A stretch of 64,000 bases of DNA from Streptomyces mirabilis. GTDB lineage: Bacteria; Actinomycetota; Actinomycetes; Streptomycetales; Streptomycetaceae. Made by a program: the position numbers and the translations under genes. Shown in pieces: positions 7,500-37,896 of this stretch (the stretch's first letter is position 1; every line of letters begins with the position of its first letter). The stretch lies in the NCBI RefSeq assembly GCF_039503195.1, contig NZ_JBCJKP010000001.1:558001-622000 (forward strand), in the 5' to 3' direction. The notes beneath the pieces are model-generated. The model saw nothing but the letters and a program-made list of their open reading frames with translations, did no database searches and was not told the DNA's origin.

Positions 7500-8002
7500 A
7501 GGTATCCCTCCGCATCGGCTTTCCCGGACGGCCCGTGCCGCCCAGGGGAACCGAGTACCCACTGCGGCCACGAACCTGCACAAACGGAAGCCACCGCTTG
7601 TTCCATCCCGACCAGCACACTCCCGACAAGGGCCCCGGGCGCCAGGTCTCCAAAGAAGAGGCCGGGGACCCGCACGGTAGGCCCGTGAAGAGCACGAGCG
7701 ATCGCGGAGAGGAACGGAGCGAAGCCGGCAGTGACGAGAAGGGCATGCACGACACCGACCCCAAGGGCCGCTCCCGGCACCCCAGCGGAACCAGAGACGC
7801 ATCCGCCCCCACCGGCGTCGACCCTCAGGACCCTTCCGGCAACCGCCGGGCCGCCGACCTTCGCGCCCAGTCTGTCGTCGAGGGGGTGACGTCACCGCCA
7901 ACAGGAGCGGTGACCGCCGTCCCGACGGCGCGGGGCGACCTTCCGGACTCCTCGGGCTTCAGCGCCCTCTCTACCTGCTGGGACACCGGTAGCGCCGGAG
8001 GG
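7500..8002. other. 500-base divergent region without a supported gene
   Basis: This lies between the divergent hemerythrin and glutamate-synthase-like genes. A frame open from 7535 joins the downstream gene, but its composition (Arg/Pro/Ser/Thr-rich, no domain) does not look like coding sequence and it would give the downstream protein an unprecedented 156-residue leader. It presumably holds both promoters. I see no repeat or RNA structure. Confidence 0.5.
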
Positions 8003-9631
8003 ATGCGCACGAGGATTGACCGCCGGACTTCGGGACACACGCACGATGTGCTGAAGATACTTCTGGTCGTCCTGCTCGGCTCGCTGGCGGTGGCAGGCTC
8101 GGTCACCGCCGTCCTGGTGTCACCCTGGTGGTGGGCCGCGGCCTCCCCTTTGCTCGTGCTCGCGCTCGTGGCCGTCCACGATCTCGTGCAGCGTCGGCAT
8201 TCCGTCCTGCGGAACTACCCGCTGCTCGGGCATCTCCGATTCGCGCTGGAGGCGCTGCGGCCGGAGCTCCAGCAGTACTTCATCGAGCGCAACTTCGACG
8301 GCCGCCCCTTCGACCGTGACACCCGCAGCATCGTCTACGAGCGTGCCAAGGGCACCGACGCCGAGGAACCGTTCGGCACCGAACTCGACCTGTACCGGAC
8401 GGGCAGCGAGTTCCTCACCCCGTCCATGGCCCCCCGATCGGTGCGCGCCGAGGCGCCGCGTGTCCGAATCGGCGGGCCCGAGTGCACCCGGCCGTACGAC
8501 ATGGCCCTGCTCAACGTCTCGGCGATGAGCTTCGGCTCGCTGTCGGCCAATGCCGTACTGGCCCTCAACACCGGTGCGCAGCTGGGCAGTTTCGCCCACG
8601 ACACAGGTGAGGGCGGTCTGTCGGAGTACCACCTGCGCCCCGGCGGGGATCTCGTCTGGGAGATCGGCACCGGATACTTCGGCTGCCGGACCGACGACGG
8701 GGACTTCGACGAGCGGCAGTTCGCCGAGAAGGCGGCGCACCAGCAGGTCAAGTGCGTGTCGTTGAAGATCAGCCAGGGCGCCAAACCCGGCATCGGAGGA
8801 GTCCTGCCGGGTGCCAAGGTGAACGCGGAGATCGCCGCGGTGCGTGGGGTTCCACAAGGGGAGACCGTCATCTCGCCGCCCTTCCACCGCGTCTACTCCA
8901 CACCGCGCGAGCTGGTGCGCTTCCTGGCCCGGATGCGCGAACTGGCCGACGGCAAGCCCGTCGGGTTCAAGCTCTGCGTCGGCTCGCGCCGTGAGTTCCT
9001 CGCCGTGTGCAAGGCGATGCTGGAGGAGGGCAGCACACCGGACTTCATCATCGTCGACGGCGCGGAGGGCGGCACGGGCGCGGCGCCGCTCGAGTTCGCG
9101 GACAATGTCGGCCTGCCGCTGGGTGAGGGACTGATGACCGTACACAACGCCCTCGTGGGCGTCGGATTGCGCGACCGGATCCGGATCGGTGCAAGCGGCA
9201 AGGTCGCCACCGGCGGCGACCTGGTCAAGCGCCTGCTCCAGGGAGCCGACTACACCAACTCCGCCCGCGCCATGATGTTCGCGATCGGATGCATCCAGGC
9301 CCAGCGCTGCCACACCAACGCCTGCCCCGTAGGGGTCGCCACCCAGGACGAACGACGCGCCCGCGCCGTTGATGTTCCCGACAAGTCCCAGCGCGTACGG
9401 CGCTATCAGCAGGCAACGGTCAAGAGCGCTCTCCAGATCATGGCCTCGATGGGCGTCGACGACCCGCGCGGGCTGCGCCCCCACATGCTGCTCCAGCGGG
9501 TGAACCCGCACACCGTCCGCTCCTACGCGGAACTCCACGACTGGCTCACCCTCGGACAACTGCTCGCATCGGCGCCCTCCAGCTGGGCAGCCGACTGGAA
9601 GGCAGCAGACCCGGACCGCTTCACCCACTGA
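8003..9631 (+). CDS. FMN-binding glutamate synthase-like protein
   Basis: A 542-residue enzyme matching the central FMN-binding TIM barrel of glutamate synthase without the amidotransferase domain. Two N-terminal membrane segments (about residues 16-55) precede the barrel. Barrel motifs include SAMSFGSLSANAVLALNTGA, IIVDGAEGGTGAAP and IRIGASGKVATGGD. Cys430, Cys436 and Cys441 fit the [3Fe-4S] site. Such stand-alone proteins are redox enzymes of uncertain substrate. I chose ATG 8003 to match family length, although its GGAGGG is adjacent; TTG 8016 is an alternative. Confidence 0.82.
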   Translation: MRTRIDRRTSGHTHDVLKILLVVLLGSLAVAGSVTAVLVSPWWWAAASPLLVLALVAVHDLVQRRHSVLRNYPLLGHLRFALEALRPELQQYFIERNFDGRPFDRDTRSIVYERAKGTDAEEPFGTELDLYRTGSEFLTPSMAPRSVRAEAPRVRIGGPECTRPYDMALLNVSAMSFGSLSANAVLALNTGAQLGSFAHDTGEGGLSEYHLRPGGDLVWEIGTGYFGCRTDDGDFDERQFAEKAAHQQVKCVSLKISQGAKPGIGGVLPGAKVNAEIAAVRGVPQGETVISPPFHRVYSTPRELVRFLARMRELADGKPVGFKLCVGSRREFLAVCKAMLEEGSTPDFIIVDGAEGGTGAAPLEFADNVGLPLGEGLMTVHNALVGVGLRDRIRIGASGKVATGGDLVKRLLQGADYTNSARAMMFAIGCIQAQRCHTNACPVGVATQDERRARAVDVPDKSQRVRRYQQATVKSALQIMASMGVDDPRGLRPHMLLQRVNPHTVRSYAELHDWLTLGQLLASAPSSWAADWKAADPDRFTH

Positions 9632-9677
9632 ACCCGGCCCTCATTCCGAGGGCCGCACCGGACCGAAGGGCACTCCC

Positions 9678-11405
9678 GTGGCACGAACCGTCGCCAGCGT
9701 GATCGTCGACGCACTCAAGGACCTGGGCGTCCAGCATGTCTTCGGAGTGGTCGGAGACGCCTTGAATCCACTGACCGACGCGATCCGCACCACTGACGAC
9801 CTGAACTGGGTCGGCTGCCGGCACGAAGAAGCCGCGGCCTTCGCCGCCGGAGCGCAGTCCCAGCTCTCGGGAACTCTCGGAGTGTGCATGGGAACGGTGG
9901 GACCCGGCTCCGTACACCTTCTCAACGGGCTCTACGACGCGGCCAAGAGCCGTACCCCCGTTCTCGCGATCTGCGGTCAGGTTCCCCTCGCCGAGGTGGG
10001 AAGCGACTACTTCCAGGAAGTCGACAACGACCTGCTCTTCCGTGACGTGGCCGTCTACCGTGCCACGGTCTCCTCCCCCGACCAGATGCCGCGGATGCTG
10101 GAGTCGGCCGTACGTACGGCTGTCAGCCAAGGCGGAGTGGCGGTGCTCACCGTGCCCGGGGACCTGGGCGACCAGGAGCTGAGCGACGACCGGCCCGCCC
10201 GCTTCGCCCTCACCCGCCCCGTCACCCGCCCGGACGACCCGGCGCTCGCGGAGGCCGCCGAACTCCTGAACGGCGCCGACCGCGTCACGCTGCTCGTCGG
10301 CCGCGGAGCGCGCGCCGCCCGCGCCGAGGTCCTGCGGACCGCCGAAGTGCTCGCCGCGCCGATGGTGCTCACGCTCAAGGCGAAGGAGGGGTTCGAGGGG
10401 GAGAACGACTTCCAGGTGGGGCAGACCGGTCTGATAGGCAACCCCGCCGCTTCCCACGCGCTCGACAGCGGCGACGTGCTCCTGATGCTGGGTACCGACT
10501 TCCCGTACCGGGACTGGTACCCGAAGGGGTGCAAGGTCGTCCAGATCGACACCCGTGAGGAACACTTGGGCCGCCGGGTTCCCGTGGACGTGGGTCTGAC
10601 GGGCGATGTGGGCGCGACACTACGAGCCTTGCTCCCGCTGCTGAAGGCGGTCCCCGACCACGGCCACCTGGACGACGCGCGGGAACGGTTCGCCCACTGG
10701 CAGGAAGGACAGCGGCGCCTGGCCGACCCGCGTCACGAGCGCCGCTGGACCGGGAAGCTGAGGGCCGCTCTGGACAACCGTGACCATGAGATCCGCCCCG
10801 AGGCACTGGCCGCCGCGGTGGACGCCTACGCCGCCGAGGACGCCGTCTTCACGTCCGACACCGGAATGGCCACCGTCTGGCTGTCGCGCTTCGTGACCAT
10901 GCGCGGCAGCCGGCGCCTGATCGGCTCGTACAACCTCGGCTCGATGGCCAATGCCATGCCCCAGGCCCTCGGGGCCCAGCTCTGGGCGCCCGATCGCCAG
11001 ACCGTCGCCTTCTGCGGCGACGGCGGGCTGAGCATGCTGCTCGGCGACCTCATGACGGTCAAGACGTACCAACTGCCGGTGAAGCTCGTGGTCTTCGACA
11101 ACCGCCGGCTGGGGATGGTCAAACTCGAACAGGAGCAGGCCGGCCTGCCTGAATTCGGCACGGAACTCGACAACCCCGACTTCGCCGCGGTCGCGGCCGC
11201 GCTCGGCCTCACCGGCATCCGCGTCACCGACCCGGCCGACCTCCACGACAGCGTGCGCCGGGCCCTCGACACCCCTGGACCGGTCCTGCTGGATGTGCTG
11301 ACCAACCCCGAGGAGGTGGCCGTGCCGGGCAAGCCGACGGTGGCACAGGGGTGGGGCTTCGCGATCGCCAAGGTCAAGGAGATTCTTCCGAGCCGCGAAG
11401 GCTGA
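9678..11405 (+). CDS. poxB: Thiamine-diphosphate-dependent pyruvate oxidase/dehydrogenase (PoxB-like)
   Basis: A 575-residue enzyme with the three-domain ThDP fold. The catalytic Glu is in GCRHEEAAAFAAGAQ (residues 47-61), the central domain spans about 190-330, and the ThDP-Mg motif is FCGDGGLSMLLGDL followed by VFDNRRLGM. It would decarboxylate pyruvate oxidatively to acetate, passing electrons to quinone. GTG 9678 is preceded by GAAGGG. It follows the FMN enzyme by 46 bases. Membrane quinone coupling is known for E. coli PoxB and only inferred here. Confidence 0.8.
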   Translation: MARTVASVIVDALKDLGVQHVFGVVGDALNPLTDAIRTTDDLNWVGCRHEEAAAFAAGAQSQLSGTLGVCMGTVGPGSVHLLNGLYDAAKSRTPVLAICGQVPLAEVGSDYFQEVDNDLLFRDVAVYRATVSSPDQMPRMLESAVRTAVSQGGVAVLTVPGDLGDQELSDDRPARFALTRPVTRPDDPALAEAAELLNGADRVTLLVGRGARAARAEVLRTAEVLAAPMVLTLKAKEGFEGENDFQVGQTGLIGNPAASHALDSGDVLLMLGTDFPYRDWYPKGCKVVQIDTREEHLGRRVPVDVGLTGDVGATLRALLPLLKAVPDHGHLDDARERFAHWQEGQRRLADPRHERRWTGKLRAALDNRDHEIRPEALAAAVDAYAAEDAVFTSDTGMATVWLSRFVTMRGSRRLIGSYNLGSMANAMPQALGAQLWAPDRQTVAFCGDGGLSMLLGDLMTVKTYQLPVKLVVFDNRRLGMVKLEQEQAGLPEFGTELDNPDFAAVAAALGLTGIRVTDPADLHDSVRRALDTPGPVLLDVLTNPEEVAVPGKPTVAQGWGFAIAKVKEILPSREG

Positions 11406-11648
11406 CCGGGAGCACGGTCCCCTGCCCGCTCCGGGTCAAAGGTGACGGTGCGACTCACCGCCCGTACGGATGGGTTGGCGGCCGAGCACCCCCGAGCCAC
11501 ACCGTGACGCGCTGGCCGAAATCGGCATCGAATCGGGCAACTGGCGCCACGGCGTGCGCGCCATCGGCGCCCCGACCGGGCGCCCGGTCACCACTGAAGC
11601 CACTCGGTCCCGGGAGGGGGCCGTAGAACCGTCTGCGAGGATGGGCGT

Positions 11649-12458
11649 ATGACTGTGCGGAGCAGGAATCATGTGACGGTGACCGGCCAGTCCGGTCGCC
11701 CCGTACTGATGCTGGCGCACGGGTTCGGGTGCGACCAGAACATGTGGCGCCTGGTGGTACCGCTTCTGGAGCGCGACTTCACCGTAGTGCTCTTCGACCA
11801 CGTGGGAGCGGGGCGTTCCGATCTTTCGGCGTGGAACATGGAGCGTTATTCGTCGATGGAGGGATACGCCGATGACGTGCTGGAGATCTGCCATGAGCTG
11901 TCGCTCGGGCCGGTGATCTTTGTGGGGCACTCGGTGAGCGCGATGATGGGCGTTCTGGCTGCGGCGCGGGAGCCGGAGGCCTTCGCCGGTCTGATCCTGC
12001 TCGCCCCGTCGCCGTGTTTCATCGACGATCCGGCCGCCGGCTACCGGGGTGGGTTCAGTGCCGAGGACATCGATGAGCTTCTGGAATCGCTGGATGCGAA
12101 CTATCTGGGCTGGTCAGGCGCCATGGCTCCGGTGATCATGGGTAATCCCGAGCGTCCGGAACTGAGTGAGGAGCTCACCAACAGCTTCTGCCGAACCGAT
12201 CCGGACATCGCCCGGACGTTTGCCCGGGTGACCTTCCTGTCCGACAACCGCGACGACCTCGCCAAGGTCACCGTGCCCACCTTGGTCGCGCAGTGCTCCA
12301 GCGACGCGATCGCGCCCCCGGAGGTCGGAACCTTCGTGCAGTCACGGATCCCCGGCAGCCGCCTGGTCACGTTGAACGCGACCGGGCACTGCCCCCAGCT
12401 CGCCGCCCCGGAGGAGACGGCTGCCGCGATCATCGCCTTCGCGGGTGCGGGCCGATGA
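11649..12458 (+). CDS. rsbQ: RsbQ-like alpha/beta hydrolase (KAI2/D14 family)
   Basis: A 269-residue alpha/beta hydrolase with the catalytic triad Ser95 (FVGHSVSAM), Asp219 (CSSDAIAP) and His247 (ATGHCPQ). That spacing matches Bacillus RsbQ and the plant strigolactone/karrikin receptors D14/KAI2. In Bacillus, RsbQ makes or perceives a hydrophobic cofactor and activates the phosphatase RsbP under energy stress. The next gene is a PAS-PP2C phosphatase, its expected partner, and the stop overlaps that gene's start (ATGATG at 12455). Confidence 0.88.
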   Translation: MTVRSRNHVTVTGQSGRPVLMLAHGFGCDQNMWRLVVPLLERDFTVVLFDHVGAGRSDLSAWNMERYSSMEGYADDVLEICHELSLGPVIFVGHSVSAMMGVLAAAREPEAFAGLILLAPSPCFIDDPAAGYRGGFSAEDIDELLESLDANYLGWSGAMAPVIMGNPERPELSEELTNSFCRTDPDIARTFARVTFLSDNRDDLAKVTVPTLVAQCSSDAIAPPEVGTFVQSRIPGSRLVTLNATGHCPQLAAPEETAAAIIAFAGAGR

Positions 12459-13708
12459 TGCGCAAGGCCAGTGAGGGCGGGGGCAGCGAGAGCCGCGACG
12501 ACCACGCGGCGTTCTCCGCGCTGCTGGAAGACAGCGCGGAGGACCTGTACGAGCGTGCGCCGTGCGGCTACCTCTCCACCCTGCTGGACGGCACGATCGC
12601 GAAGATCAACACGACGCTGCTCGACTGGCTGGGCTACCAACGTGGCGACCTGGTGGGCCGCAAGACCTTCTCCGACCTGCTCACCGTGGGAGGCCGGCTC
12701 TACCACGAGACGCACTTCGCTCCGCTGCTGCGCATGCAGGGGGAGGTCAGCGGAATCGCTCTGGAACTCAAGACGGCCGACGGCGGCCGTCTGCCGGTAC
12801 TGGTGACCTCCACGGTCAAGACCGGCAGCGACGGGCAGCCACTGCTGATCCGTACCACCGTCTTCGACGCCCGCGACCGCCGCGCCTACGAGACCGAGCT
12901 GCTGCGCGCGCGGCAGGAAGCAGAACGCGAACGCGAGGAACTCAAGCGCCTCAACGCCACCCTGCAGCGGACCCTCCTGCCTCCGACCCTGGTGAATGTG
13001 CCCGGCTTGGATGTGGCCGCGCACTACCACATCGCCTCGACCGACAAGGTCGGCGGCGATTTCTACGACCTGTTCCCTCTCGCCTCGGGAACCTGGGGAC
13101 TGTTCCTGGGCGACGTGTGCGGCAAGGGCGCGGCCGCAGCGGCCGTCACCTCCCTGGCCCGCTACACCCTGCGTGCCGCCGCCGTCTACGACCCCGATCC
13201 GGTCGCCGTCCTGAGCAACCTCAACACGGTTCTCAACCACGAATACAACGGCCAGGACCCGCGGTTCTGCACGGTCGTCTTCGGACTGCTCGTCCCCGAC
13301 GCAGACCGAGGCGGCTTCCGTGTCACCCTGGCCAGCGGCGGCCACCCCCCTGCCCTGCTCATGCGGGCCGACGGCAGTGCCGACTACCTCCCCACCCCCG
13401 GCGGGCAGCTCATCGGCGCCCTGCCCGACGCCCACATCGCCACCACCACCGTCCGCCTTGACCTCGGCGACACCCTGCTGCTCCACACGGACGGCCTCAC
13501 CGAAGCACACACCGCCCAGATCACGGACGGCGACCGCTACGGTGACGACGCTCTCCTCGACTTCGCCCAAGTCCTGGCACCGACGACCGCCTCCGACGCC
13601 GTGGCCGCGGTCCGTGACCTGCTCGACACACTCGGCACCGGAGTGGACGACGACACCGCCGTGCTCGCCATCAGCGTGCCCCGGCCCACCAGTGAAGAGC
13701 AGCCGTGA
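12455..13708 (+). CDS. rsbP: RsbP-like PAS-PP2C phosphatase
   Basis: A 417-residue SpoIIE-type serine phosphatase. An N-terminal PAS domain (about residues 25-145; APCGYLSTLLDGTIAKINTT, then WLGYQRGDLVGR) is joined by a charged coiled coil (about 148-180) to the PP2C domain (from about 190). Metal-binding motifs are DKVGGDFYDLF, FLGDVCGKGAAAAAV, HTDGLTEA and VDDDTAVLAI. It should dephosphorylate an anti-anti-sigma factor when its PAS domain is engaged by the upstream hydrolase. Its stop overlaps the GTG of the STAS gene. Confidence 0.88.
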   Translation: MMRKASEGGGSESRDDHAAFSALLEDSAEDLYERAPCGYLSTLLDGTIAKINTTLLDWLGYQRGDLVGRKTFSDLLTVGGRLYHETHFAPLLRMQGEVSGIALELKTADGGRLPVLVTSTVKTGSDGQPLLIRTTVFDARDRRAYETELLRARQEAEREREELKRLNATLQRTLLPPTLVNVPGLDVAAHYHIASTDKVGGDFYDLFPLASGTWGLFLGDVCGKGAAAAAVTSLARYTLRAAAVYDPDPVAVLSNLNTVLNHEYNGQDPRFCTVVFGLLVPDADRGGFRVTLASGGHPPALLMRADGSADYLPTPGGQLIGALPDAHIATTTVRLDLGDTLLLHTDGLTEAHTAQITDGDRYGDDALLDFAQVLAPTTASDAVAAVRDLLDTLGTGVDDDTAVLAISVPRPTSEEQP

Positions 13709-14070
13709 CCCAGCTGACCGTCCGCACGCGCGCCACCCCCGCCGGACCCGTCGTCGAACTGTCCGGAGCACTCGACAACGACAGCGCCCCCGACGTACGT
13801 ACGCTCCTGCCCCGCCTGAAACTCCAGGCAGGCCAGCAGCTCGTCATCGACCTGACCGGCATCACCTTCTGCGACTCCAGCGGCATCACCGTCCTGATCG
13901 CCGCCCGCAATCACGCCCTCGCCGCCCGGGCGGACATCGCCCTGGCGGCGGTCCCCGACCGCGTCAACCGAATGCTCCACATCGTCGGGCTGGACCAGGT
14001 CTTCCCCACCCACCCCACCGCACGAGCAGCCGCAGAAGCCTGGACACCACCCGGCCCCACCCCTGAATGA
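13705..14070 (+). CDS. STAS-domain anti-anti-sigma factor (RsbV-like)
   Basis: A 121-residue STAS protein. Residues 46-66 (LVIDLTGITFCDSSGITVLI) hold the phosphorylation site; Ser58 in D-S-S-G is the residue expected to be phosphorylated by an RsbW-type kinase and dephosphorylated by the upstream phosphatase. The unphosphorylated form would bind the kinase/anti-sigma factor and free a sigma factor. GTG 13705 overlaps the phosphatase stop. No RsbW kinase or sigma factor gene is seen nearby, so those partners must be elsewhere. Confidence 0.88.
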   Translation: MTQLTVRTRATPAGPVVELSGALDNDSAPDVRTLLPRLKLQAGQQLVIDLTGITFCDSSGITVLIAARNHALAARADIALAAVPDRVNRMLHIVGLDQVFPTHPTARAAAEAWTPPGPTPE

Positions 14071-14363
14071 GCGCATGCCGCGGGTTCATACGTCGCGGCG
14101 CCGGAACAGCGGGCACCGCGAGCACGACCGCTACGAGCGTCCAACCGCCTACATCAGCCAGGAGTCCGCGTCTGCGACGGTGCAGCCGAGGGATCCCTGA
14201 TCCGGCGACCGGTTGTGGACCAGACGCTTCCAGGCGGTGACGACCATCGCGGGGTTGTTCGTCGGCGGACCAACGCTTGCTCTGCGAGAAGATCGTGGGC
14301 AGCATCAGCGGCTGCGGGGCCGTCAGACAGCTGTCCGCCGTGCGCGCCTCCTTCCACTCGAGT
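14071..14363. other. Start of degraded region; no supported gene
   Basis: About 290 bases after the STAS gene. On the minus strand an open frame of about 34 codons starts at ATG near 14240 and reads MVVTAWKRLVHNR, but it has no partner domain I can name. Frames on the plus strand are short and unlike proteins. The change from the tightly packed block before 14,070 to fragments after it is abrupt. Confidence 0.4.
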
Positions 14364-14560
14364 CCCAGGCGATACGTACGACAGATATCCGAGTCACCCG
14401 TCGGCGGGGAGAGACCCGCGGTCATCCTCCTGCACGGCGACATCGGGGTCTCCTCGGGATCCGCCGGCCGGCGCTGGATGACGCCCTTCCTCGGAGCCAA
14501 CGGATTCCGCGTGTACTGCCCGGACTGCCCCGGCCTGGTCGACACCATCAGGCCGGAACA
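14364..14560 (+). pseudogene. Alpha/beta hydrolase N-terminal remnant
   Basis: A fragment of about 65 codons carries PAVILLHGDIGVSSGS, then WMTPFLGANGFRVYCPDCPG, the usual first strands and oxyanion HG motif of an alpha/beta hydrolase. No nucleophile elbow or triad follows; the sequence runs into an IS630-type fragment on the other strand. It has no start with a ribosome site. Confidence 0.4.
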
Positions 14561-15660: not shown

Positions 15661-16991
15661 GAATAAACTGCAGAATTGCGTTCGCTGCGTGGCGCCAACC
15701 GCGGGCGATGCTGTGGGGCATGGCAGGCGTGACGGGCCTCGGGTTCCTCATCGCGCTGGAGATCGCCGCGCGTCGTTACGGCCTGCCGGGGCCGATCACC
15801 AATCAGGCGCGAGAGGTGATATTCGCTCCCAAGTCGGGTTTCCTGTTGTACGCCGGTATGGCGTTGATGATGGTCGTGCTCACCCGGCGGCAACGGTTCA
15901 TCGCGGCCGGCGCCGCGATCGCTATCGACGTCGCCTTCTTCCTGGTGCGGTGGGCGGTCGACGCCAAGGTGACCGAGGGCCACCCCTTCGGCAACGGCGC
16001 GTTGTGGGTGATTTTGGGCCATGCGGTGATCGCCATCACGCGCCGCACCGGCCGGGAACGTGTCCTGCTGCTGAAGGGCGTCGGCCTTGGCCTGCTGCTG
16101 GTGACCGGCCGCAAGACTGGCGATACCTGGCTCCTCATCACGTCGAAAATCCGCCCGACAACGCTCGACCAGTACGTGGCAACCGCCGATCACGCACTGG
16201 CCAACCCGTCGTGGGTGGTAGGCCGGATCGTCACAGCCACCGGCCCGATCGGTGCCCATGTTCTCGGAACCGTCTACGTTCAGCTTGCGGTGGCCGCGGT
16301 CATCGTGGCGCTGTACCAGCTGCGTAACGTGGCGGTCGAGCGCCGCTTCCCGCGCCATCATCTGGTGCGCACCTTTCTGGTCATCGGCCTCCTCGGGCCG
16401 GCCATCTACATGATCTTCCCGGTGGTCGGACCGGTCTTCGCCTACGGCGCGGAAGGCGGGCACTGGGCGGTGGCCAACGTGTGGCCGAACACACCGCCGC
16501 CGATCAATGCCCCGCACCAGCTGCCATTCGACGAGATCACCCCACGCAACTGCATGCCCAGCCTGCACACAGCGTGGGCTACCGCGATTTTCATTCATTC
16601 CCGTAAGGGCCCACGGATTCTGCGATTCGCAGGCATGTTCTGGCTGATTGCCACACTCGGCGCCACGCTGGGATTCGGCTACCACTACGGCGTGGATCTC
16701 GTTGCCGGCGTGGTGTTCGCACTCACGATCGAGGCAGCGTTGCGCTCGCTCGACCATGGCTGGGACCGGTCAGGAATCCAGCTGGTCATCTACAGTGCCA
16801 CGGTCTTCGCCGCGCTCTTGGTGTCATATCGCTATCTGCCGGTGCAGATGGCCGAACATCCTTCGGTGTTCGGGCCACTTCTCATTCTGGCGATGGCCTC
16901 AGTGGTCCACGGCTACGTACAGACCGCCAAACTGTGGGACCCGAAGGCCGCACCAGCGCAGCATCCGGAACCGCAACCCGAACTGGCTTGA
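15585..16991 (+). CDS. PAP2-family (AUR1-like) membrane protein
   Basis: A 468-residue protein with many hydrophobic helices and two phosphatase signatures: CMPSLHTAWA (about residues 324-333) and GFGYHYGVDLVAG (about 364-376), equivalent to the catalytic His and His/Asp motifs of PAP2 enzymes. The first PAP2 motif (KxxxxxxRP) is not evident, as in AUR1-like PAP2_3 proteins that transfer inositol phosphate or act on lipid phosphates. ATG 15,585 has no ribosome site; ATG 15,711 or 15,720 are alternatives, and the first 40 codons are less GC-biased than the rest. Flanked by IS debris, so acquired DNA is possible. Confidence 0.65.
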   Translation: MIDLLSQHLTNRPKQLISRSSRVFSRINCRIAFAAWRQPRAMLWGMAGVTGLGFLIALEIAARRYGLPGPITNQAREVIFAPKSGFLLYAGMALMMVVLTRRQRFIAAGAAIAIDVAFFLVRWAVDAKVTEGHPFGNGALWVILGHAVIAITRRTGRERVLLLKGVGLGLLLVTGRKTGDTWLLITSKIRPTTLDQYVATADHALANPSWVVGRIVTATGPIGAHVLGTVYVQLAVAAVIVALYQLRNVAVERRFPRHHLVRTFLVIGLLGPAIYMIFPVVGPVFAYGAEGGHWAVANVWPNTPPPINAPHQLPFDEITPRNCMPSLHTAWATAIFIHSRKGPRILRFAGMFWLIATLGATLGFGYHYGVDLVAGVVFALTIEAALRSLDHGWDRSGIQLVIYSATVFAALLVSYRYLPVQMAEHPSVFGPLLILAMASVVHGYVQTAKLWDPKAAPAQHPEPQPELA

Positions 16992-17185
16992 TTTACAGGC
17001 CATTTCATTTGAGGAGTCTGCGGTAGCAGACGAGTGGGGCCGCGACAGTTCGTTCCGTGCACAGCCGGCCTTGTCCACGATCGCAAGCGCGGCCAAGGCC
17101 TCCCACCGTGAGACCGACGACGGCCTCCGTCCGCCCTGCGGGCGGGCCGGCACCGGAGGCACCACCCGGGGAGAGTTCCCACAGG

Positions 17186-17665
17186 CCTTGACGTGCTCCC
17201 TGGCCTGAAGTCCAGGGATTCCGGCCTGGGTCGTCTGCCCCTTCCGGGGGCTTCCTGCTTCAACGCGCTCTGCCGGGACTTTCGTCCCGGTCCTACCGGC
17301 GCTCTGTGAGGCGGTTGGCGTCTCCGCCCGTCCGGCGGCGACGATACGGCGTCCTTCGAAGAGCACGTTGCAGGCTGCGTCGTGGTCGCGGTCGTGCACG
17401 GTGCCGCACGCGCCGCACGTCCACTCCCGGACGTGCAGGGGCTTGGGGCCGTCCCGGAATCCGCAGGCCGAGCAGACCTGAGACGACGGGAAAGCGCGGT
17501 CCACCCTGGCGAACGTGCGGCCGTGCCTGACCGCCTTGCACTCCAGCATGCCGACGAACGCGGACCATCCCGCGTCCTGCACGGGCTTGGCTAGCCTGGT
17601 GCGGCCGAGACCGGACACCGCGAGGTCTTCCACACACACCGCTTGGCTGTCGCGGATGATCTGTG
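17186..17665 (-). pseudogene. tnpB: IS200/IS605 TnpB C-terminal remnant
   Basis: The remnant carries the RuvC-II catalytic Glu (AVCVEDLAVSGLGRTRLAK), the Cys4 zinc finger (SSQVCSACGFRDG and WTCGACGT) and RuvC-III Asp (HDRDHDAACNVL). The N-terminal half with the first RuvC Asp and the nucleic-acid-binding lobe is missing, so it cannot be an active RNA-guided nuclease. The normal stop is lost; the frame reads on through the right-end hairpin to 16,899. The element's right end is preserved next to it. Confidence 0.8.
17197..17218 (-). repeat. IS200/IS605 right-end hairpin
   Basis: TCCCTGG (17,197-17,203) pairs perfectly with CCAGGGA (17,212-17,218) around an 8-base loop. It lies just past the TnpB 3' end, where subterminal right-end hairpins of this IS family stand and where the omega RNA scaffold ends. 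A second right end of the same type is at 61,907-61,928. Confidence 0.65.
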
Positions 17666-17796
17666 CGGAAGCCTTGGAGCTCGTAACACGATCATGTTGC
17701 TGACACGGACTTGGCGGCGCGACCCGAGGACCAGCTCCAGCTGTAAGAACCAGCTTGCACCGGGCGTTGTCAGAGGCATCAGGCACACTGCGCCGT

Positions 17797-36762: not shown

Positions 36763-36897
36763 GACCTCCTGGGCCGCCGCCGCGACGCGTTGCCCGCTGT
36801 CATCACCCACACCACGACCAGCCCCGTCGCCGACGCCGACGCCGCGGGCGACGTTCGACGCCGTCCGTGATCTGCGTATGGAAGGACAACCCCATTG

Positions 36898-37896
36898 ATG
36901 ACGACCACCCCGTCGACGACCGATCGCACGACGACATCCGGGGTCGAGATGCGTGGCTTCGGCCCGGGCGACGGCCCGCGGTTGGTGGAGTCGTGGCGCC
37001 GGAGTGCGCCGGCCGACTCCATCACCCCGGACCGCTTCCGCTCCCTGGTGCTGCTCGACCCCAACTTCGATCCGGAGGGCCTTCGGGTCGCCGTCGACGG
37101 CGACCGTGTCCTCGGCGCGGCCTACGCGGTGCGCCGTCTGACGCCGATGACCGGCACCGACCTGGAGCCGGAGCAGGGCTGGATCCCGTTCTTCTTCGTC
37201 GACCCGGCCGTCCGCGGGCGCGGCCTCGGCCGCCGGCTGCTGACCGACGCCCTCGACTGGCTGCACGGCCACGGCCGCACCCGGGTGGACTTCTCCTCGT
37301 ACACCCCGAACTACGTCCTCCCCGGCCTGGACGCCGAGGCGTACCCCGAAGCGGCCGGGCTCCTTGAGTCCCTGGGCTTTCGTACACTGTACGAGGCGGC
37401 GGCGATGGACCGCGGCCTGGTCGGCTATCGCATCCCGGAGGATGTCGCGTGCCGCTTGGACGAACTGACGGCGCAGGGCTACCGGTTCGCCACTCCGTAC
37501 GACGACGACCTGGTGGACCTGTTCGCGCTCGCCGGGAACCACTTCGGCCCGGACTGGGCGTGCACGATCCGGCAGTGTCTGGCCGCGGGCACACCGCTCG
37601 ACCGGATCGTCGTCGCCCGGGACCCTTCGGGTCGCCTGGTCGGTTGGGCCATGCACGGCACGTTCGACTCGGTGGACGAGCGGTTCGGGCCGTTCGGCGT
37701 GCTGGAGGAGATGCGCGGCACCGGACTCGGCAAGGTCCTGCTCCACCTGGTCCTGGAGCGGATGCGGGCGCGCCGCGCGCACTCCGCGTGGTTCCTGTGG
37801 ACCGGCGAGCAGTCCCCGGCGGGCCACCTGTACCGCAAGAGCGGTTTCACCACGACCCGGGTGTTTCGCGTGATGCGTCGGGAGGCCGCCCGATGA
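36898..37896 (+). CDS. Tandem GNAT-family N-acetyltransferase
   Basis: A 332-residue protein with two GNAT domains. The first (about residues 15-150) has FFFVDPAVRGRGLGRRLLTD, a clear acetyl-CoA-binding R-G-x-G-x-G/A motif. The second (about 185-330) has GPFGVLEEMRGTGLGKVLLH, then WFLWTGEQSPAGHLYRKSGF. GAAGGA at 36,881-36,886 supports ATG 36,898; TTG just before is possible. It lies in the NamZ-transporter operon and overlaps the next gene by 4 bases (ATGA), so an amino-sugar or muropeptide substrate is plausible but unproved. Confidence 0.75.
   Translation: MTTTPSTTDRTTTSGVEMRGFGPGDGPRLVESWRRSAPADSITPDRFRSLVLLDPNFDPEGLRVAVDGDRVLGAAYAVRRLTPMTGTDLEPEQGWIPFFFVDPAVRGRGLGRRLLTDALDWLHGHGRTRVDFSSYTPNYVLPGLDAEAYPEAAGLLESLGFRTLYEAAAMDRGLVGYRIPEDVACRLDELTAQGYRFATPYDDDLVDLFALAGNHFGPDWACTIRQCLAAGTPLDRIVVARDPSGRLVGWAMHGTFDSVDERFGPFGVLEEMRGTGLGKVLLHLVLERMRARRAHSAWFLWTGEQSPAGHLYRKSGFTTTRVFRVMRREAAR

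Follow-up and report, generated by a model that had tools for sequence, protein, structure and literature searches.

An RsbQ-RsbP-STAS gene set in Streptomyces mirabilis, a probable sensory arm of a partner-switching pathway

Composition of the three-gene operon

The window, a 64,000-nucleotide stretch of the Streptomyces mirabilis genome (G000, contig C1, with the operon's own region designated L193), carries at 11649-14070 on the plus strand three genes joined by overlapping start and stop codons. They encode an RsbQ-type alpha/beta hydrolase (Q; 11649-12458, 269 amino acids [aa]), an RsbP-type phosphatase built of a PAS domain, a helical linker and a PPM (SpoIIE-family) domain (P; 12455-13708, 417 aa from the ATG at 12455), and a STAS-domain protein of the RsbV or anti-anti-sigma type (V; 13705-14070, 121 aa from the GTG at 13705). 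A preliminary description made from the sequence alone had proposed this set with its overlaps, a Ser95-Asp219-His247 triad in an RsbQ-like hydrolase, a PAS domain in the phosphatase and a D-S-S-G motif in the STAS protein, and all of these elements were confirmed. The Q-P junction reads ATGATG, such that a P start at 12455 gives the described ATGA overlap (12455-12458) and a start at 12458 gives a one-base TGATG overlap, while the P stop and V start share the described GTGA (13705-13708).

Conservation was assessed over 75 Q loci from 60 Streptomyces genomes; the 76th place where Q was found, a partial Q in G119, was left out. Because a composition-based gene caller skipped Q in the window, loci were counted by tblastn and six-frame profile searches; the third-position GC content of Q (0.83) lies below that of P (0.88).

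Q belongs by Pfam to broad hydrolase families (Abhydrolase_1/6), which would be compatible with an ordinary metabolic hydrolase standing beside a phosphatase gene by chance. We consider this highly improbable, given that P follows Q in all 75 loci and overlaps it in 68, and that none of the 25 listed NCBIfam models (of 26) reaches its cut-off against Q. Among the best 60 of 242 Protein Data Bank (PDB) matches, the closest structure is RsbQ itself (1wom; 299 bits, E 2.8e-88), followed by 3qvm (256 bits) and by KAI2/HTL/D14-type chains together with a few named only as alpha/beta hydrolases (153-200 bits), and the next chain below this block reaches only 61.7 bits. The triad residues S95, D219 and H247 are invariant in 75/75 loci, as are F26, V96, F136 and F196, the counterparts of the B. 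subtilis RsbQ pocket and gate residues F27, V97, F136 and F196 as matched by eye from the 1wom alignment and a supplementary legend (PMC3183031). Q also lies directly upstream of a protein with an RsbP-type PAS domain in the window, in all 75 same-genus loci and in 8 of the 9 from other genera that were read. By sequence, then, Q is RsbQ-like. It shares the hydrolase family and triad with the plant butenolide receptors KAI2 and D14 (about 153-200 bits among the best 60 of 242), but is closer to RsbQ and is partnered by a bacterial PAS-phosphatase; the score order RsbQ, 3qvm, KAI2/D14 speaks against membership of the plant clade, as far as scores alone, in place of a joint tree, can tell.

P matches PAS_9 and SpoIIE in Pfam. 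The P monomer as modelled by AlphaFold2 from an alignment of 25 sequences (mean predicted local distance difference test score [pLDDT] 82.7, predicted template modelling score [pTM] 0.62) contains a PAS-like part at residues 38-138, a single 33-residue helix at 142-174 and a PPM part at 186-407, which agrees with the N-terminal PAS, helical linker and C-terminal PPM of RsbP. The PAS part (residues 37-138, 12563-12868, plus strand) carries C37, L40, R81, Y83, H87 and P90, matching the published RsbP-PAS signature (C10, L13, a basic residue at 53, an aromatic at 55, H or Y at 59, P62 and no DIT; PMC3183031), and has DAR at the site of the DIT of the published outgroup. Positions were matched to those of B. 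subtilis RsbP by way of motifs quoted in that paper's text and not by aligning the Bacillus protein, and L48, C56, E72 and P86 have no assigned counterpart. Across the relatives, C37, G38, G80 and P90 are invariant in 75/75, position 81 is K or R and position 83 Y or F in 75/75, L40 is kept in 72/75 and H87 in 73/75, with R in the other two. The metal-binding aspartates of the PPM domain lie in the window's GGDFYD, GDVCGKG, TDGL and DDDTAV motifs, and are retained in nearly all of the 75 relatives (D202 and D205 in 75; D220 in 74, with 1 gap; D346 in 70, with 3 gaps; D399/D400 in 70, with 4 gaps). Judged from sequence and the predicted model, P has the RsbP architecture with its signature residues. 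The best fold match of the model, and the best sequence match of its PPM domain, is 3ke6, the RsbU/RsbW domains of M. tuberculosis Rv1364c; that protein unites phosphatase, anti-sigma and anti-anti-sigma in one chain, whereas here P and V are separate and the kinase is encoded elsewhere.

V matches STAS_2 (E 8.8e-18) and STAS (7.5e-16) in Pfam and exceeds the cut-off of the NCBIfam model ant_ant_sig (66.9 bits against 53.45). Its D57-S58-S59-G60 motif holds a putative phospho-serine, S58, that is invariant in the 56 loci in which V was measured. A role as substrate of P is inferred for V.

Q and P stand at -1 in 51 of the 75 loci, -4 in 16, +2 in 7 and -23 in 1. The start of V was measured in 56 relatives, and in 37 of these P and V stand at -4, as in the window. 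With undamaged catalytic motifs, and with an order and overlaps that relatives share, the three-gene arrangement is not a product of chance. Scans of 11380-14400 for sigma-70 promoters and terminators returned none.

Distribution of Q, P and V among relatives

At E<=1e-50, Q was found in 61 of 150 Streptomyces genomes; P follows it in 75/75 of the loci taken and V follows P in 57/75. The share with V is uneven across rough groups of Q identity: loci at 78-100% mostly carry V, nine loci at about 70-75% all lack it, and those at about 60-70% mostly carry it again. A set of 80 named loci found with P has Q upstream in 75 (in L083 as a remnant only) and V downstream in 40. L083, from Streptomyces sp. 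BK208, is a decayed locus with a SigB/F-type sigma gene, C-terminal pieces of Q, a P with a damaged start, and V.

Beyond the genus the third gene becomes rare. A phylum-wide search placed Q (E<=1e-60) in 23 of 396 genomes, 6 of them Streptomyces, and in the 9 outside-genus loci that were read (from 18 Q places in 17 genomes) Q is followed by a P-like PAS protein in 8 and by V in none. Among 22 named loci from other genera, of which L098 is cut off, a V-like gene turned up in four, namely in Dactylosporangium (L081, 65%), Sinosporangium (L101, 45%), Pseudonocardia (L118, 42%) and Planotetraspora (L100, 33%). In two outside-genus loci, L325 and L329, Q is followed by a longer protein with a middle segment between the PAS part and a PPM-like C-terminus. 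At L324 (G199), a Q homologue (57%) has no P match behind it within the stretch read; Q without a P partner thus also exists.

In a tree built from 158 Q rows by a quick method, the presence of V is clustered (0/500 label shuffles gave a value as low) and changes 21 times, with at least 9 changes forced by starred branches. From this tree, V appears to have been gained or lost repeatedly in a lineage-dependent manner. The preliminary description had stressed the STAS gene in the same operon and a dedicated actinomycete version. The three genes are indeed co-inherited in most same-genus Q loci (57/75), but they do not form one uniform actinomycete version, given the 18 loci without V and the 0/9 and 4/22 counts outside the genus.

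The absence of V from 18/75 same-genus loci (one of which, L171, is cut by a contig end) and from 9/9 read outside the genus could be taken to mean that V is a passenger or a competitor and that the relevant substrates of P are other STAS proteins, such as BldG-like ones. Cross-talk of this kind would be plausible in a genus where the cited account of S. coelicolor lists 17 RsbV, 45 RsbW and 44 RsbU/RsbP homologues (PMC8346170). We regard the passenger reading as unlikely, however, in view of the four-base overlap in 37/56 measured loci and the invariance of S58 in 56/56.

The RsbQ-PAS-PPM module is itself not new to Streptomyces. A 2011 survey by Nadezhdin et al. listed 45 pairs of RsbQ and PAS proteins; those of Gram-positives have a PPM output, and they include modules of two Streptomyces species (S. 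ambofaciens and a second) at two copies each (PMC3183031). Those modules share the output and the genus of the present operon; the word 'STAS' does not occur in the main text of the survey, and the sections consulted report no downstream STAS gene and no sigma or kinase linkage. What is new here is the STAS gene as a third member, its retention in most same-genus loci, and sigma and kinase linkage in some relatives. In the open-licence literature we found no report of an RsbQ-RsbP-STAS operon in Streptomyces, which is not proof of absence, as several papers mentioning RsbQ (e.g. PMC4598750) were not opened.

The search was also run from the side of P, which was found (E<=1e-80) in 65 of the 150 genomes, that is, in the 61 with Q and in G099, G066, G100 and G130. 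In the last three the match is limited to the C-terminal part, and in G099 P stands behind a partial Q (residues 188-264 matched). Q and PAS-bearing P therefore co-occur nearly completely.

A few copies of P nevertheless lack an adjacent Q, which raises a broader possibility: Q could be a shared sensor that activates its own P together with P-like phosphatases encoded elsewhere without Q, and thereby serve several partner-switching circuits. Five named loci (L047, L050, L071, L082, L088) have such a P, and all five genomes carry Q elsewhere, against 61/150 overall. In G017 a second P stands on a contig where Q has no match, the one Q of that genome being elsewhere (the DNA around the second P was not read). 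The second P of G114 was left out, its Q place sharing contig number and coordinates with that of the L071 genome. Q is thus found elsewhere in 6/6 genomes with an unlinked P, an outcome with a chance of about 0.5% at the 61/150 background if the genomes were independent, which they strictly are not. The five Q-less proteins are P homologues (79-86% identity) and keep the Q-contact signature (with K for R81 in L088), and L088 reads STAS-P-kinase without Q, its kinase being RsbW-type. S. coelicolor BldG, described as phosphorylated by several kinases (PMC8346170), also speaks for the idea. Set against this, only a single Q and a single close P are present in the genome of the window, the genomes with an unlinked P number just six and are counted without correction for relatedness, and activation in trans is a proposal. 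We therefore view the shared-sensor idea as possible, with the odds somewhat against it.

Sigma-factor and kinase genes near the operon and elsewhere

Regions of 8 kb on each side of the 75 loci, where the contig allowed, were compared with 60 control regions on the same contigs shifted by 50-150 kb; 15 of the 75 have no control (that of the window and 14 on short contigs). A SigB/F-type sigma gene is present in 11/75 regions against 0/60 controls (Fisher p 0.0011), and short-frame RsbW-like ATPases above 60 bits in 13/75 against 2/60 (p 0.0085), both with loci treated as independent. Restricting the comparison to the 60 region-control pairs gives 8 against 0 for sigma (p 0.003) and 12 against 2 for the short-frame kinase (p 0.004). 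We treat these figures as indications, given the relatedness of the loci and the origin of the sigma and kinase profiles, which came in part from neighbours of an overlapping set of named loci, some of them identical (L132 = L044), which favours neighbour-type proteins in test and control regions alike.

The linked genes take several forms. On one strand, L185 reads sigma (stop at 7540), Q (8001-8786), P, V (10087-10440) and kinase (stop at 11074), and L061 (S. laculatispora) likewise reads Q, P, V, sigma and kinase. L046, L053, L054 and L125 have a sigma gene before Q and a convergent HATPase gene after V; the L046 HATPase has a MEDS domain, and the proteins of the other three have the same best own-genome match. 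A kinase gene lies behind V in L049 and L128, L168 has a kinase upstream and a sigma downstream, L173 and L151 have adjoining sigma and kinase frames, and L191 and L192 have a different SigB-type sigma behind V. Pfam confirmed sigma regions 2 to 4 in the one neighbouring sigma protein checked and HATPase_c_2 in the kinases checked.

The window's own locus is not a complete partner-switching locus of the kind seen in some relatives, as no kinase lies in the window and no kinase or sigma gene lies within 8 kb of the operon. The preliminary description had noted the absence of an RsbW kinase nearby and had suggested a genome search for one. The first point stands for the window, where no HATPase_c_2 (RsbW-type ATPase) match was found, but it does not carry over to the genome or to the relatives, some of which carry sigma and kinase genes near the operon above control level. 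The search returned 115 genomic matches at E<=0.001, some below the Pfam cut-off and many in long frames, and the nearest above the cut-off lie about 92 kb and 149 kb away from the operon, in frames of 818 and 159 aa, respectively.

Comparison of the neighbours in relatives with the proteins of G000 narrows the choice. The sigma gene at C1:925296-926138 is the best G000 match of the neighbouring sigma proteins in 17 of 21 loci (two overlapping sets, with L044 = L132), and it adjoins an opposite-strand ATPase gene at C1:924109 whose product shares 60-68% identity with the L046-type proteins. The 13 regions hold 14 short-frame kinases, and eight of these find their best match in G000 kinase L264 (controls 0/2; comparison set of 19 entries, of which two are the same gene). 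The L264 gene reads as an intact frame at C1:1208597-1209238 and, as judged by eye, is preceded by a STAS-like frame. The kinase that adjoins the Q-less P of L088 has its best match (68%) in the short kinase at C1:419971-420297, which lies 149 kb away from the operon. On sequence grounds the best candidate partners are the sigma gene at C1:925296-926138 and the kinase genes at C1:1208597-1209238, C1:10718001-10718342 and C1:419971-420297. A second SigB/F-type sigma gene (L278:5297-7618; C1:1201296-1203617) has a match that stops at about residue 219-221; by eye it runs into IS200/IS605 transposase-like frames, about 5-7 kb from the L264-type kinase.

Several other genes of the window were recorded. 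A glutamate-synthase-like gene and a pyruvate-oxidase/pyruvate dehydrogenase-like (thiamine pyrophosphate) gene lie upstream of Q at 7535-11405; L039 and L041 keep the two genes there, L040 keeps only the oxidase, and in L049 the pair is more distant. They were rejected as a functional part of the system, a strong oxidase match being upstream in only 4/80 named loci. A minus-strand frame at 16902-17786, between PAP2 and DUF6461 genes, has a Cas12f1-like TNB domain (4.6e-20) and is probably an IS605-family (TnpB) remnant, and the gene at 36895-37893 encodes a protein carrying two GNAT acetyltransferase stretches.

A probable sensory arm of a partner-switching pathway

Taken together, we read the operon as the sensory arm of a partner-switching pathway whose kinase and sigma factor are encoded elsewhere in this genome, and we put the probability of this reading at roughly 0.77. 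Q, a hydrolase with a small-molecule pocket, would contact the PAS domain of P, as the conservation of the published RsbP residues suggests; the PAS domain would then drive the linker helix and hence the dimeric PPM domain, following the published model for RsbU and RsbP. P would remove phosphate from S58 of V, and dephosphorylated V would sequester an RsbW-type ATPase and anti-sigma factor encoded elsewhere, such that a SigB/SigF-type sigma factor could be freed. Each of these steps, from PAS binding and activation of the phosphatase to dephosphorylation of V and capture of the kinase, is proposed here by analogy with B. subtilis. There, the RsbQ contact has been placed at the F-alpha helix of the PAS domain (PMC3183031), and a 2025 eLife study predicts RsbP activation through the linker, with RsbQ between the PAS domains and the linkers (PMC12143880). 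The likeness extends to a hydrolase encoded directly upstream of a PAS-helix-PPM protein, the triad, the PAS signature and the lack of DIT, whereas in B. subtilis rsbQP forms a bicistronic operon and rsbV belongs to that of sigB (PMC3183031), unlike the STAS gene that stands third here. The logic expected downstream, STAS protein, HATPase and SigB-type sigma, resembles the S. coelicolor sets rsbB-rsbA-sigB, ArsI-PrsI-SigI and BldG, for which the passages of the source describing them report no coupling to a Streptomyces RsbQ-type hydrolase (PMC8346170).

Several observations weigh against the sensory-arm reading. V is missing from 18/75 same-genus loci, where P must have other STAS proteins as its targets. 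In 58/75 regions, the window's included, the 8 kb on either side hold no sigma gene and no short-frame kinase gene, and the contrast is weaker when kinases of any frame length are counted (18/75 against 6/60, p 0.028). The construction of the profiles and the relatedness of the loci described above also limit these linkage tests. The neighbours are moreover of several kinds, including MEDS-HATPase proteins, other kinase groups and more than one sigma group, and hence point to no fixed target. Finally, a SigB-type promoter (GTTT-N12-18-GGGTA and two looser forms) was found upstream of Q in 0/75 loci for each form, with random stretches giving 1, 2 and 15 matches in 3000 and the strict form having no match in the 64-kb window.

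The signal that Q might perceive invites a more specific proposal. The 2011 survey called the cue of the module mysterious and gave B. subtilis as the only species with a known target (PMC3183031). According to a review, B. subtilis expresses sigB less strongly at the roots of Arabidopsis when rsbPQ is missing (PMC7522486), in keeping with a signal from the plant side. Deletion of S. lividans SLIV_19850 (SCO3690), called RsbQ-like, lowered diamide tolerance, mostly on minimal medium (PMC6295645). We suggest, as a speculative reading that is more probably wrong than right by a wide margin, that the operon is an intracellular butenolide receptor of Streptomyces, in which Q would bind and slowly turn over a butenolide and, through P and its private V, free a specific SigB/F-type sigma factor, with the same Q in some species also driving Q-less phosphatases in trans. 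The proposal merits consideration because RsbQ has been reported to perceive butenolides and because Streptomyces make and use butenolide-type hormones. The ligand may be a plant compound of the strigolactone or karrikin kind, or a butenolide or gamma-butyrolactone hormone that the streptomycete makes itself.

An operon that encodes its own presumed substrate, combined with a recurring sigma type and kinase subfamily beside it in some relatives, reduces the search for targets to a short list. The operon would also offer a clean reporter for ligand screening, the butenolide hormones of Streptomyces included. If the butenolide proposal is true, a KAI2/D14-like receptor would be tied to sigma-factor control in a hormone-producing, plant-associated genus.

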